Shown here: positions 4,089 through 34,710 of the stretch, one piece after another
Layout of the letters: each line of letters opens with the position of its first letter
Position numbering within the stretch: the stretch's first letter is position 1
Source of the DNA: Deltaproteobacteria bacterium
Lineage (GTDB): Bacteria > Desulfobacterota > Desulfobacteria > Desulfobacterales > SpSt-501
Assembly: GCA_016219005.1 (NCBI GenBank)
Contig: JACRCN010000086.1
Coordinates: forward strand, 1 to 59,088
Direction of reading: 5' to 3'
DNA: 59,088 bases
Position numbers and translations under genes: made by a program
Notes under the pieces: model-generated
Database searches by the model: none
What the model was told of the DNA's origin: nothing
Seen by the model: the letters and a program-made list of their open reading frames with translations, nothing else

Positions 4089-5273
4089 CTAACTGCGGTA
4101 GTCGGCATTGATCTTGACGTAATCGATGGAAAAATCGCAGGTGAAGACCGACGCCCGGCCCGGGCCCAGGTGCAGATCCAGCGCGATGCAGAACTCGTCG
4201 CTCTGGAGCACCCGCGTGGCCTCCGCCTCCACCGCTTTGCCGCACCCCATCCCGCGGGACACCATCTGGGCCGCACCGATGAACACGTCCACCGTGTCCG
4301 GGTTGAGCGGGACCCCCGCCCGCCCCGCGGCCGCGAGGATCCGGCCCCAGTTGGCATCTTCGCCGAAAAGGGCGGTCTTGACCAGGGGCGAGTGCGCGAT
4401 CGTGTCGGCGATGCGCAGGGCCTCCGGGTCGCTGAGAGCGCCGCGCACGCTGATTTCCACCAGCTTGTTCGACCCCTCGGCATCCTTCACCACCCATTTG
4501 GCCAGGGCGAGCATGACCTCGTCCAGAAGGGCCTGGAAAGCAGCCCGGGCGTCGTCCGAGTCCACCGCGGCTCCCGACAGACCGTTGGCCAGCAGCAGGA
4601 TGGTGTCGTTGGTGCTGGTGTCACCATCCACCGTGATGCGGTTGAAGGAACGGTCGGCCGCCGCCACGAGCATTCCTCGGAGGTCAGCCGGCGCCGCTGC
4701 AATGTCCGTCATGAGAAAGCAGAGCATGGTGGCCACATCCGGCCGGATCATTCCGGCCCCCTTCACGACCCCCGTCAGGGTGAAGGTCCGGCCGCCCATC
4801 CGTCCTTGCCGCGAGACAACCTTCGGCACCCGGTCGGTGGTCATGATGGCTTCGGCAAAATCCATCACCCCTTCGGCCTTAAGGCCGCGCAGGAGCCCCG
4901 GCAGCGCCGACTCGATGCGCTCTACGGGCAGCGGTTCGCCGATCACGCCCGTGGATGCGACGAGCACCTGCGCCTCCGGAACATTCAGCGCGCAGGCCGC
5001 CGCCCGGCCCATGCGGACTGCGTTGCGGTAGCCCTCCGCGCCGGTGCAGCAGTTGGCGTTGCCGCTGTTCACGAGCACGGCCCGGCAGATCCCGCCCGGT
5101 ACCCGCTCGCGGTCGAGCCGCACCGGTGCCGCCTGGATCTGGTTGCGGGTGAAGACGCCGGCAACGCTCGCCGGCACATCGGACACGATCAGACCGAGGT
5201 CGCTGCGTCCGTTCTTCTTGATGCCGGCGGCAGCCCCGGCGGCCTTGAACCCTGGACATGGAATGATCTTCAT
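4089..5273 (-). CDS. argJ: Bifunctional glutamate N-acetyltransferase / amino-acid acetyltransferase ArgJ
   Basis: Transfers the acetyl group from N-acetylornithine to glutamate, closing the cyclic arginine pathway. It may also make N-acetylglutamate from acetyl-CoA. ArgJ is made as a proenzyme that cleaves itself just before a Thr nucleophile. Here that site is the block KGAGMIRPDVATML with Thr182. The oxyanion motif ASTGVIG and the NDT motif of the beta chain (STNDT) are also visible. Length 394 aa is normal. Whether it is bifunctional cannot be judged from sequence alone. No other arg gene lies nearby. Confidence 0.95.
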   Translation of the reverse strand: MKIIPCPGFKAAGAAAGIKKNGRSDLGLIVSDVPASVAGVFTRNQIQAAPVRLDRERVPGGICRAVLVNSGNANCCTGAEGYRNAVRMGRAAACALNVPEAQVLVASTGVIGEPLPVERIESALPGLLRGLKAEGVMDFAEAIMTTDRVPKVVSRQGRMGGRTFTLTGVVKGAGMIRPDVATMLCFLMTDIAAAPADLRGMLVAAADRSFNRITVDGDTSTNDTILLLANGLSGAAVDSDDARAAFQALLDEVMLALAKWVVKDAEGSNKLVEISVRGALSDPEALRIADTIAHSPLVKTALFGEDANWGRILAAAGRAGVPLNPDTVDVFIGAAQMVSRGMGCGKAVEAEATRVLQSDEFCIALDLHLGPGRASVFTCDFSIDYVKINADYRS

Positions 5274-5488
5274 CGGGACGTCTCCAGTTTGGATGCGCTC
5301 TCGTCCGAAACGCCCTCGGGCGGACAGACCGGGCGCGTGGGTGCTTTGACAGAATCCGCAGGCGTTGTCAATCGGTCCACCTCCGGCCCCGCGGCTTCGG
5401 CACTGCGGCAGCGAACCGACCGCAGCCTTTCCCGCTGGTTTTTGCGCTTATCGCTTTGACGTGGGGGCTCAAAGGTTCAAGCGGCTGT

Positions 5489-5517
5489 TTGACACCCGCC
5501 CCGGCTTTCAGTAATGT
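5489..5517 (+). promoter_or_regulatory. Sigma-70 promoter ahead of the selenoprotein-AEC unit
   Basis: TTGACA (5489-5494), a 17-base spacer and TAATGT (5512-5517). The predicted transcript would start about 37 bases before the ATG at 5561. Nothing else is recognisable in the 287 bases between argJ and this gene. Confidence 0.55.
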
Positions 5518-5560
5518 CGCCCTGCCATATGCACCCCCGACCATCATTACAGGACATGTC

Positions 5561-5752
5561 ATGAAGACCACTCGAAACCTGGAATGGAATTGCCGGCGCT
5601 GCGGCGAACGCTTGGATCTCCGCCGCACCTGAACCTCCGTGCATCTGCGCTGCAGGGCTTGCAGCGCGCAGTTCTCCCTGGCGGAATACCAGAGCCAGAT
5701 GGATGAACACCTCGATGAGGAACTGGCCCACATCCGCTGCGACCGCTTGTGA
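5561..5752 (+). CDS. Small dual-CXXC protein, probable selenoprotein (Sec at UGA codon 24)
   Basis: The frame runs ATG (5561) to TGA (5750-5752) with one internal TGA at 5630-5632. Read as selenocysteine it gives 63 residues: CRRC at 11-14, Sec at 24, CRAC at 34-37, then an acidic Asp/Glu-rich stretch and a terminal IRCDRL. Coding character is continuous across the UGA: both CXXC pairs and a charged C-terminus sit in the same frame. A SECIS-like hairpin lies at the right distance behind the UGA. From memory, delta-proteobacteria carry a family of dual-CXXC small (seleno)proteins of this layout; I could not search for it. The function is unknown; a zinc-ribbon or redox role is an inference. 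The stop overlaps the next ATG, so it is probably cotranslated with the AEC transporter. The alternative is a pseudogene with a nonsense mutation. Confidence 0.75.
5630..5668 (+). promoter_or_regulatory. Candidate bacterial SECIS element
   Basis: The UGA at 5630-5632 is followed after 14 bases by a 7-bp perfect stem GCGCTGC (5647-5653) / GCAGCGC (5661-5667). An A-U pair can close it, leaving the apical loop GGGCU. A short stem, G residues at the start of the loop and this spacing are what SelB-dependent bSECIS elements show. The E. coli fdhF element has a very similar GC-AGGUCU-GC tip. Confidence 0.65.
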
Positions 5753-6669
5753 TGACGATCGTTCTCGAAAACCTTTTCCCCATCTTCGCCCTCATGGCCG
5801 CCGGGAAATTAATGCGGCACTGGAATTTTACCACGGAAGCATTTCTCAGGGTCTCGGACCGGCTGGTCTACTTCATTTTTTTCCCGGCCATGCTCTTCTG
5901 GAAAATCGGCGGCGCACCCCCGGACCTTTCCGGTGAAAGCGCCTTTTACGCGGCGGTGACCCTGGCGGTGGCCGCGGTTTACCTGCTCAGCACGACCTTC
6001 ATCATCGTCGGCAGAGTGGGCACCTACCAGGCCGGCTCCTTCTCCCAGAGCTGCTATCGCATCAATACCTTCATCGGTGTAGCCGTGATGATGAGCACCT
6101 TCGGGGAAGAGGGCGTCCGGCGATTCGGCATCTTGATCGGAATCTTCGTGCCCTTGATCCACGTCCTCTCGATATCCACCCTGATCTGGTTCGGCGGCAA
6201 ACGGGTTGCCCTGCGGGCCCAGATTTCGCAGACGGCAAGGGCGCTGGCGACCAACCCGTTGGTCCTGGCCTGCGTGGGCGGAATGATCTACGGCCAACTG
6301 GTCAACCGCTTTCCCGGCTTTATCGACAACACGCTGAGGCTCGCCTCCTATGTCACACTGCCGCTGGCCCTGTTGTCCGTCGGCAGCATGCTCACCCTGG
6401 AGAGCCTGCGGACCCATTTGCGGCTCGCCCTGGCGGCTTCGCTGTTCAAGCTGCTGGTTCTGCCGGCCATCGGATTCATGTGCCTGCGGGCGCTGGGGAC
6501 CGATGGCCCGTCTTTCCGGATCGGCATGATCTTCTTTTCCTTGCCGACATCGTCCGCCGCTTACATCCTGTCCTCTCAACTGAACAGCGACCCGGAGCTT
6601 GCGTCCGCGGCCATCGCGCTCTCGACGCTGTTGTCTTTCTTTTCCCTCTCCGCCGCGCTGCTCATGTGA
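5752..6669 (+). CDS. AEC (auxin efflux carrier) family transporter
   Basis: Inner-membrane secondary transporter with about ten hydrophobic segments in two halves. The N-terminal FPIFALMAAGKLM, the FFPAMLFWKI segment and the C-terminal LPTSSAAYIL are typical of bacterial AEC permeases such as malonate or malate carriers. The substrate cannot be read from sequence. The ATG at 5752 overlaps the stop of the small selenoprotein (TGATG); a GTG at 5749 would add one residue. Translational coupling suggests a joint operon, but no functional link is known. Confidence 0.85.
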   Translation: MTIVLENLFPIFALMAAGKLMRHWNFTTEAFLRVSDRLVYFIFFPAMLFWKIGGAPPDLSGESAFYAAVTLAVAAVYLLSTTFIIVGRVGTYQAGSFSQSCYRINTFIGVAVMMSTFGEEGVRRFGILIGIFVPLIHVLSISTLIWFGGKRVALRAQISQTARALATNPLVLACVGGMIYGQLVNRFPGFIDNTLRLASYVTLPLALLSVGSMLTLESLRTHLRLALAASLFKLLVLPAIGFMCLRALGTDGPSFRIGMIFFSLPTSSAAYILSSQLNSDPELASAAIALSTLLSFFSLSAALLM

Positions 6670-6690: not shown

Positions 6691-7431
6691 ATGAAGAATT
6701 TCAAGCTCATCATTGAATACGACGGTACGAATTACAAAGGCTGGCAGCGGCAGGCCGCAGAACCCACCGTGCAGGCTGAAATCGAGAAGGCTCTGTCCGC
6801 CATGACCCGCTCCGACATCACCCTCATCGGCGCCGGCCGCACCGATGCCGGCGTGCACGCCCTGGGTCAGGCCGCTCACTTCCGCTGCGAGACGCGCCTG
6901 GATCCCGAGGCCATCCTCAAAGGCCTCAACAGCCTCCTGCCGCCCGACATAGCGATCTGCGACTGCCGCCTGGTTCCGGAGGACTTTCACGCCCGCTTCG
7001 CCGCGCAAAGCAAGATTTACCGCTACCGGATTCTGAACCGCGCGGCGCGGGCCGCCGTCGGCCGGAATTACAGCTGGTTCATCCACCGGCCGCTCGATGT
7101 GCGAGCGATGCAGCAGGCGGCGCATTTCATCGTCGGCCGACACGATTTCAAGGCGTTTGAAAGCTCCGGAAGCCCCCGGGCGCACACCGTCCGACACGTG
7201 ATGGCGGCAGAGTGGGTCGAGGAGCGGGAGCAGGGGCTGCTCGCCTTTCAAATCGAGGCCGACGGTTTTCTGCGCTGCATGGTGCGCAACATCGTGGGCA
7301 CGCTGGTGGCGGCAGGCCTGGGGAGGATCCAACCCGCAGACGTCGCGGCGATCCTGGCGTCCCGGGACCGGCGCCGGGCCGGCGCCACCGCCCCGGCCAG
7401 GGGCCTGTTCATGGTCGAAGTCAACTACTGA
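6691..7431 (+). CDS. truA: tRNA pseudouridine(38-40) synthase TruA
   Basis: Modifies uridines 38-40 in the anticodon arm of several tRNAs. The catalytic Asp52 lies in GRTDAGVHA. The N-terminal YDGTNYKGWQRQ and the C-terminal FLRCMVRNIVGTL blocks are diagnostic. At 246 aa it has the standard length. It begins 21 bases after the AEC transporter on the same strand, so it may be the last gene of that unit. Confidence 0.96.
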   Translation: MKNFKLIIEYDGTNYKGWQRQAAEPTVQAEIEKALSAMTRSDITLIGAGRTDAGVHALGQAAHFRCETRLDPEAILKGLNSLLPPDIAICDCRLVPEDFHARFAAQSKIYRYRILNRAARAAVGRNYSWFIHRPLDVRAMQQAAHFIVGRHDFKAFESSGSPRAHTVRHVMAAEWVEEREQGLLAFQIEADGFLRCMVRNIVGTLVAAGLGRIQPADVAAILASRDRRRAGATAPARGLFMVEVNY

Positions 7432-33288: not shown

Positions 33289-34710
33289 ATGGATTTGACT
33301 GAACGACAGCGACACCTCCTGCGGCTGCTCCCGGCCGTCGACCGCGTCATCGATCTCGCGAAGACCGCGAGCGGCTTCGAACGGATCCCCAAATCGGTGG
33401 TCGTCAGCTCGATCCGCACCGTGATCGAGGCGCAGCGTCGACGCGTCTGCGAGGGCAACGGCACCCTCACCGATGCGGAGCTGTCCGACGGGGCCATCAT
33501 GGACCGGGTGAAGGAGACGGTGCAGCTTGCCATGCGCCCGAATCTCCGACGCGTGGTCAACGCCACCGGTATCGTGGTGCACACCAATCTGGGCCGCTCG
33601 CTGCTGGCGCAGGAGGCAATCGAAAACATGGCGGCTGTCGCCGCCGGCTACTCGAACCTCGAATACGACCTGGCGCAGGGCAAGCGCGGCTCGCGCTATG
33701 CCGCCGTCCAGGACCTCCTGTGCGAGATCACCGGCGCGGAGGCCGCCATGGTGGTCAACAACAACGCCGGCGCGGTGCTCGTCTGCCTCGAATCCCTGGC
33801 GCGGAACCGCCAGGTCATCGTCTCCCGCGGCGAGCTCGTCGAGATCGGCGGCTCCTTCCGCATTCCTGACGTCATGGCCAAGAGCAACGCCGTGCTGAGG
33901 GAGGTCGGGACCACCAACCGCACCCACCTCCGGGATTACGAAAGCGCCATCGCTCCCGAAACCGGGCTCCTGCTGAAGGTTCATTGCAGCAACTACAGTA
34001 TCGTCGGCTTCACGCGGCAGGTGTCGCTGAAAGAACTCGTCGGCCTGGGAGCTATCCACAACCTGCCCGTAATGGAGGACCTCGGCAGCGGCACCTTCAT
34101 CGATTTCTCGCGCTACGGCCTGCTGAAAGAACCCACCGTGCAGGCGTCGGTCGCCAGCGGCGCCGATGTGGTCACCTTCAGCGGCGACAAGCTCCTGGGA
34201 GGTCCCCAGGCGGGGATCATCGTGGGCAAGCAGACCTTCATCGAGCGTATCCGCCAGAACTCCATCACCCGGGCGCTGCGCATCGACAAGCTCACCCTGG
34301 CGGCCCTCGAGAGCACGCTGCGGCTTTACCGTGACGAGGAACGGGCCGTGGCGGAGATACCGACCCTGCGCATGCTGACCGACACCGAAGCCGCGATCGC
34401 GGCGCGCGCCGCGGTGCTCGCCCGGACACTGGCCGGCTTGCCCGACTCCCGGCTGGCGGTCGATCTCGTGCGCCTGCCGTCCAAGGCCGGCGGCGGCGCC
34501 CTGCCGCTGCTGGAGCTGCCGAGCCGCGGCCTGCGCATCCGCGTCAACGGGCTCTCCGCCAACGCGCTCGAGCTGCGCCTGCGGAGCGCAGATCCGCCCG
34601 TCATCGGCCGCATCGAGGACAATGCCTTCGTAATGGATGTGCGCACCCTTCAGAACGACGAATTCCCCCTCATCGAATCGGCCCTGGCGTCGATTCTGAA
34701 AAGCGACTGA
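33289..34710 (+). CDS. selA: L-seryl-tRNA(Sec) selenium transferase SelA
   Basis: PLP enzyme that converts seryl-tRNA(Sec) to selenocysteyl-tRNA(Sec) using selenophosphate. The PLP lysine is Lys301 in FSGDKLLGGPQAG. The N-terminal RVVNATGIVVHTNLGRS, MVVNNNAGAV and SRGELVEIGGSFRIPD blocks are diagnostic. 473 aa is the usual length. The start is the ATG at 33289; a GTG at 33274 is possible. selB, selC and selD are not in the window. Its presence means the organism can in principle insert selenocysteine, which matters for the UGA-containing gene at 5561. Confidence 0.96.
   Translation: MDLTERQRHLLRLLPAVDRVIDLAKTASGFERIPKSVVVSSIRTVIEAQRRRVCEGNGTLTDAELSDGAIMDRVKETVQLAMRPNLRRVVNATGIVVHTNLGRSLLAQEAIENMAAVAAGYSNLEYDLAQGKRGSRYAAVQDLLCEITGAEAAMVVNNNAGAVLVCLESLARNRQVIVSRGELVEIGGSFRIPDVMAKSNAVLREVGTTNRTHLRDYESAIAPETGLLLKVHCSNYSIVGFTRQVSLKELVGLGAIHNLPVMEDLGSGTFIDFSRYGLLKEPTVQASVASGADVVTFSGDKLLGGPQAGIIVGKQTFIERIRQNSITRALRIDKLTLAALESTLRLYRDEERAVAEIPTLRMLTDTEAAIAARAAVLARTLAGLPDSRLAVDLVRLPSKAGGGALPLLELPSRGLRIRVNGLSANALELRLRSADPPVIGRIEDNAFVMDVRTLQNDEFPLIESALASILKSD

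Follow-up and report, generated by a model that had tools for sequence, protein, structure and literature searches.

A dual CXXC motif small protein of Desulfobacterales whose in-frame UGA very probably encodes selenocysteine

The locus investigated in this study raises the question of whether a UGA codon that interrupts a short reading frame between two CXXC pairs terminates translation or is read as an amino acid and, in the latter case, which residue is inserted. The frame is located in the window, by which we refer to the whole analysed stretch of 59,088 nucleotides of a Desulfobacterales assembly. The initial annotation had described a frame with CRRC and CRAC motifs and an internal UGA at 5630-5632, and this description is borne out by a translation in which TGA is treated as a residue. 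Positions 5561-5752 of the forward strand then encode a protein of 63 amino acids (MKTTRNLEWNCRRCGERLDLRRTUTSVHLRCRACSAQFSLAEYQSQMDEHLDEELAHIRCDRL) with U as residue 24, the C-terminal sequence CDRL and a terminating UGA at 5750-5752. The spacing in the protein is CRRC-x9-U-x6-CRAC. In all six frames, the window contains the general motif CxxC-x(5,15)-UGA-x(3,12)-CxxC a single time, compared to a mean of 0.075 and a largest count of 2 in 40 second-order Markov copies. As an observation, the UGA-interrupted CXXC frame with its hairpin is real and confirmed. Its features are as follows:

5551..5554, forward strand: AGGA, a likely ribosome-binding site, 6 nucleotides 5' of the ATG
5561..5752, forward strand: gene of the dual CXXC motif small protein, very probably a selenoprotein, from the translation with TGA as a residue and its match to the family NF041197, the sole match in the genome
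5591..5602, forward strand: first CXXC codons (CRRC), presumed knuckle 1 of a zinc ribbon, with Cys columns invariant in the 29-row alignment A3
5630..5632, forward strand: in-frame UGA, a probable codon for selenocysteine (possibly cysteine via a selC* route), TGA in 33 of 65 aligned family genes and TGC or TGT in 32 of 65
5651..5662, forward strand: second CXXC codons (CRAC), presumed knuckle 2 of the zinc ribbon, with Cys columns invariant in the same alignment; these codons double as the top and loop of the hairpin

The gene ends with two consecutive in-frame UGA codons (5750-5755), in an organism that recodes UGA.

The identity of the protein is defined by its match to NCBIfam NF041197, which covers positions 1-53 of the 53 positions of the model with 69.9 bits at a cut-off of 40 (E = 1.5e-19), whereas the runner-up in NCBIfam stays at 19.2 bits with a cut-off of 87. 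A six-frame search of the genome with the same model returned a single match of 61.5 bits. In a 2026 review (PMC13188914), NF041197 appears as 'Dual CXXC motif small protein (hypothetical protein OS_HP3)' with the motif R-x-U, and OS_HP3 is credited to Zhang and Gladyshev 2007. The protein is also contained in a 2022 review (PMC9312934), and a further study (PMC12013277) names OS_HP3 of Desulfosarcina widdelii as the sole known selenoprotein in the test genomes that was missed by its program. A text search of the literature for 'NF041197' retrieved PMC13188914 alone. Judged from its sequence, the window gene is very probably a selenoprotein gene and a member of an already catalogued family, and since this family has been described as NF041197 and OS_HP3, its novelty is low. 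The concern that the gene may be missed by automatic annotation does not hold wherever NCBI's NF041197 model is applied.

The comparison with relatives defines which residues occupy the position of the UGA. We have read 66 family loci, consisting of the window gene and L026 to L090, which are the top scorers of their searches and not a random sample. The pattern used for their identification demanded U or C at the Sec position and was matched by 65 of the 66 loci. The same number of loci share one spacing, and homologues with either UGA or Cys at this position, which the initial annotation had proposed to search for, were found in nearly equal proportions, with 33 UGA forms, among them the window gene, and 32 forms with a Cys codon. 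The remaining locus (L090) contains one extra residue and has Cys at the Sec position. Sec and Cys thus exchange at the UGA codon within the family. The same exchange is found within the genus, where the gene is present in seven of seven genomes, including the one of the window, with TGA in six and TGT, encoding Cys, in one (G006).

On a broader scale, matches of the NF041197 type at E <= 0.001 were detected in at least 252 of 389 genomes of the order (at least 238 above the cut-off) and in at least 112 of 395 genomes of the phylum (at least 88 above the cut-off), in searches that scored no more than 16 first-look candidates of each genome, so that misses are possible. No family match was found in 14 control genomes. 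The window protein as a query against named genomes retrieved no relative. An alignment of four relatives as a query identified 16 loci, all of them from metagenome-assembled genomes of Desulfobacteria, Desulfobacterales, Desulfobacteraceae or Deltaproteobacteria; this set overlaps with the other set of relatives in at least one apparent genome (L151 / G124:C107), and the two are not independent.

Many genomes of the phylum contain a second, weaker match to NF041197 that scores below the cut-off. Among 20 regions with such second matches (L131-L150), the sought motif was present in 17, 16 of which carry UGA in the context G-x-U and one carries Cys. Under the same accession NF041197, the 2026 review (PMC13188914) also refers to a 'hypothetical protein DW' with the motif G-x-U, and the second matches probably correspond to this protein. 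In the genome of the window, no second copy was found beside the window gene at E <= 0.001.

A hairpin follows the UGA in the RNA:

5646..5668, forward strand: bacterial SECIS-like hairpin of 9 bp with the loop GGGCU at 5655-5659, from the fold and from the conservation of pairs and loop in UGA forms

Its arms (5647-5654 and 5660-5667) comprise 8 nucleotides each and are 100% complementary, and the fold adds a U.G pair at 5646:5668, resulting in a stem of eight Watson-Crick pairs and one U.G pair. The distance from the UGA is 13 nucleotides to the stem and 22 nucleotides to the loop. The hairpin noted in the initial annotation is thus present, with dimensions close to the 7 bp at fourteen bases behind the UGA originally given. 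A search of Rfam over 5400-5800 returned no family match. The folding energy of a 64-nucleotide stretch is no better than that of dinucleotide shuffles (z -0.51), and in the 45 nucleotides 3' of the UGA only 1.4% of 500 synonymous recodings fold better (z -2.06). At a threshold of 5%, the recoding test is passed by 6 of 33 UGA forms, including the window gene, and by 3 of 32 Cys forms, and total folding energy provides weak evidence for the hairpin.

Since plain folding energy is a poor test, we have used a codon- and pair-based comparison of the 33 UGA forms with the 32 Cys forms, in which hairpin positions are numbered from the base after the UGA. The pair 18:32 is formed in 33 of 33 UGA forms compared to 17 of 32 Cys forms, the pair 17:33 in 32 of 33 compared to 9 of 32, and two consecutive guanines in the loop are found in 26 of 33 UGA forms and in none of the 32 Cys forms. 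The kept pairs show changes on both sides, with CG and TA at 18:32 and GC, AT, TA and CG at 17:33. A sharp signal is contained in the codon at the loop. Of the UGA forms, 24 encode Arg at this position and all 24 do so by AGG, compared to 13 AGG among 208 Arg codons elsewhere in the same genes; in the remaining nine UGA forms the codon is ACG (5), GGG (2) or AAG (2), and in the Cys form of the same genus (G006) it is GGA. Fisher p values for these comparisons range from 3e-6 to 1e-23, calculated without regard to the relatedness of the loci, and they overstate independence because the compared loci are the best-scoring ones and mutually related. The pairs 20:30 and 21:29 are present in every gene, in UGA and Cys forms alike, since the Cys codons largely dictate the bases of these innermost pairs. 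The outer stem is poorly conserved, with 16:34 formed in 20 of 33 UGA and 17 of 32 Cys forms and 15:35 in 13 of 33 and 10 of 32, respectively. At the level of the compared genes, these patterns demonstrate that the hairpin is selected for the decoding of UGA, beyond what is required by the protein.

The same results bear on a rival interpretation of the locus, in which the UGA is a plain stop that leaves either a peptide of 23 residues or a decayed gene accompanied by a chance hairpin. Although termination at 5630-5632 is what the standard code dictates, this interpretation is difficult to reconcile with the conservation of the region 3' of the UGA, where all 29 rows of alignment A3 agree on Cys31, Cys34, Asp48 and Arg62, with a hairpin that is under selection beyond the protein, and with the recurrence of the same UGA across families of the order and the phylum. 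We thus find it barely credible.

The question of which residue is inserted leads to the selenium machinery of the organism, one component of which is encoded in the window itself:

33289..34710, forward strand: selA, selenocysteine synthase, within a longest open reading frame from 33274

The presence of selA at 33289, as initially annotated, is confirmed, with either 33274 or 33289 as its start. In other parts of the genome, we found a canonical selB on contig C89 (378 bits) and two selD genes, each with one in-frame TGA (C100:18958-19884 and C79:14164-15081). The genome check suggested at the outset for selB, selC and selD has thus located the first and the last of these, in addition to selA, whereas a canonical selC was not found in the assembly. 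This latter result refers to a search with Rfam RF01852 of an assembly that is 98.51% complete, in which 150 of 945 and 123 of 945 first-look candidates were scored. The tRNA-Sec sequence of the relative G005 used as a query gave a match of 18 bases only, which is at chance level. Among the 21 genomes of the relatives set, 15 contain a tRNA-Sec gene of the canonical class (73-78 bits); four of the six other members of the genus belong to these 15, the genome of the window does not. Of these tRNA genes, 14 of the 15 end in G73-CCA and the 15th, which lies at a contig edge, is outside that count. For the peptidase adjoining selC in G005, the assembly of the window contains only matches with an identity of about 30%, a result compatible with a gap in the assembly, although the gene may simply not be syntenic. 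In G005, the canonical tRNA-Sec (G005:C140:15126-15219) is followed by an open reading frame (L178 1655-2731) that by eye resembles a tyrosine-recombinase integrase, an arrangement reminiscent of an element inserted at selC in this genome.

The only tRNA-Sec-like gene of the assembly (C100:12719-12808) has the anticodon UCA, the pair A1:U72 and the discriminator base U73. On its 3' side, a full-length divergent SelB of 640 amino acids (280.8 bits) is followed by cysS, which overlaps with the SelB stop by one base and encodes a CysRS of 436 amino acids that matches the cysS model only as far as position 384 of 466. The end points of the cysS and Pfam matches suggest that this CysRS has no anticodon-binding domain. 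Beyond the set of tRNA, SelB and CysRS (G000:C100:12719-16067), we observed genes for a double-cubane reductase and an activase, with selD and yedF at a greater distance. A set consisting of selC* tRNA-Cys, selB* and cysS* has been described in Desulfobacterales with the features seen on C100 (PMC7609411), and tRNAs of the selC* type insert Cys at Sec UGA codons (PMC9437257). By its sequence features, the C100 tRNA is better explained as a selC* tRNA-Cys(UCA) than as a tRNA-Sec, and equivalent tRNAs were also found in G005, G019 and G006. Both Rfam RF01852 and ARAGORN label the C100 gene as tRNA-Sec, and surveys in the order may consequently miscount such genes.

Since the genome contains a second route to read UGA, position 24 may be occupied by Sec or, on occasion, by Cys. 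The UGA of the window gene could in this way be dual-coded, with Sec inserted when selenium is plentiful and Cys inserted by the selC* tRNA-Cys(UCA), SelB* and CysRS* when it is scarce, in line with a proposal reported in PMC9437257 that the Cys-at-UGA system serves under selenium scarcity. This possibility, which we retain as a tentative alternative, draws on the resemblance of the tRNA, SelB and cysS genes on C100 to the published Desulfobacterales system (PMC7609411) and on the tolerance of Cys at the position of residue 24, which is evident because relatives carry a Cys codon there. It is weakened by the C-terminal winged-helix match of SelB*, which is inferior to that of canonical SelB, with wing_2 giving no match at E <= 0.001, and by G006 of the same genus, which has a selC* tRNA and yet a Cys codon in this gene, so that a link between selC* and the NF041197 family is not supported.

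A more radical version, in which the organism has lost canonical tRNA-Sec and only Cys is inserted at the UGA, would account for the missing gene in a 98.51% complete assembly. It appears very unlikely in light of the retention of selA, canonical selB and two selD genes, and of the canonical-class tRNA-Sec in four of six other genomes of the genus. The gene may also have escaped the Rfam searches, given the number of candidates scored (150/945 and 123/945), and the approximately 30% identity found for the peptidase that neighbours selC in G005 is compatible with a gap in the assembly.

We thus return to selenocysteine as the residue that most plausibly occupies position 24. The initial reading of the gene as a small selenoprotein is supported by the NF041197 match, the exchange of Sec and Cys, the hairpin, and the presence of selA, selB and selD, and we are confident, short of certainty, that the UGA at 5630-5632 is recoded by SelB and the hairpin to yield a selenoprotein of 63 residues, presumably a zinc ribbon. 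In the proposed mechanism, SelB bound to the hairpin 3' of the UGA would deliver Sec-tRNA to the ribosome for insertion of Sec. The product would presumably be a small zinc ribbon of the cytosol that holds one metal ion with its two CXXC knuckles and carries Sec, as an exposed selenol, at the turn of the intervening beta-hairpin.

The proposed fold is based on an AlphaFold model calculated from 15 sequences (mean pLDDT 70.6), which contains strands at 17-22, 27-31 and 37-39 and helices at 40-43 and 49-56; a model obtained without relatives is much alike. In this model of moderate confidence, the two CXXC pairs flank a beta-hairpin, with residue 24 placed in the turn between the strands 17-22 and 27-31. 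The closest structures identified by Foldseek are chains of RNA polymerase complexes, which we take to be their zinc-ribbon subunits, with a best E of 0.2 and none below E 0.001. A profile search of PDB sequences gave a weak match to RPC10 (0.0015), and matches to Pfam families of the zinc-ribbon type were below cut-off. We read this as a putative zinc ribbon in which the two CXXC knuckles would coordinate one metal ion, presumably zinc, and in which Sec would lie exposed at the hairpin turn and most likely offer a selenol for a redox step or for the binding of a metal or metalloid.

The genes surrounding the locus were compared in relatives:

4089..5273, reverse strand: argJ, divergent upstream neighbour, with the same placement and opposite orientation in 23 of 39 neighbourhoods
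5752..6669, forward strand: membrane transport protein of the AEC type (PF03547, Mem_trans) from Pfam, whose ATG shares one base with the stop of the selenoprotein gene
6691..7431, forward strand: truA, encoding a tRNA pseudouridine synthase, a neighbour on the downstream side that is present in 19 of 39 neighbourhoods

The overlap of the stop of the small gene with the start of an AEC transporter, noted initially, is found in the sequence TGATG, with the stop at 5750-5752 and the ATG at 5752, and translation of the two genes may be coupled. For the comparison, 40 regions of relatives were taken, one of which was dropped due to its odd spacing, and neighbours were sought by tblastn in the remaining 39. 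A transporter homologue is present in 14 of these neighbourhoods and located immediately 3' of the selenoprotein gene in 11, a pseudouridine synthase is present in 23, and in 7 truA is immediately 3' of the gene without the transporter. The order of a divergent argJ, the selenoprotein gene, in some cases the transporter, and truA is repeated across families of the order, and the Cys form of G006 (L128) has the same argJ, transporter and truA neighbours as the window gene. None of argJ, pseudouridine synthase, truA and transporter was found in 12 of the 39 neighbourhoods, which include 6 of 6 outside the order and 6 of 33 inside. As the recurrent neighbours are mixed housekeeping genes, no single pathway can be read from them, and we have rejected an assignment of function on this basis, also in view of their absence in all six loci outside the order.

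The gene described here enlarges by one member an uncharacterised selenoprotein family that is widespread in Desulfobacterales and their relatives, and it is the second way of the genome to read UGA, rather than the family member itself, that is unusual. With Sec and Cys forms in one genus, an AGG signal in the loop and a host that contains a Cys-at-UGA system, the family offers a handle that could show what this system reads. If the codon were indeed read in two ways, the supply of selenium would determine the chemistry of this small, presumed zinc ribbon, and the family, in which natural Sec and Cys forms share genus and gene order, would provide a clean reporter for the switch.

The described features can be compared to known systems. 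The SECIS of E. coli fdhF contains UGCAGG..UGC at the top of its stem and a G-G loop shortly 3' of the UGA. The hairpin of the family resembles it in the stem top and in the G-G loop near the UGA and differs in the sequence of its loop, which is most commonly AGGTCCT (15 of 33 UGA forms) and AGGGCTT in the window gene. With respect to the selC*/selB*/cysS* system (PMC7609411, PMC9437257), the genome contains three genes with the published signs, which are located on a different contig outside the selenoprotein locus, and a connection of this system to the window gene is conceivable. Like the window protein, the hypothetical protein DW has Sec between two CXXC pairs, whereas it differs in its G-x-U instead of an R-x-U motif and in its C-terminal part. 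The closest correspondence is with NF041197/OS_HP3, with which the window protein shares the full length, the location of Sec between two CXXC pairs and the R-x-U motif; the second pair is most commonly CRSC in alignments of this family and CRAC in the window protein, and nothing else notable distinguishes the two.
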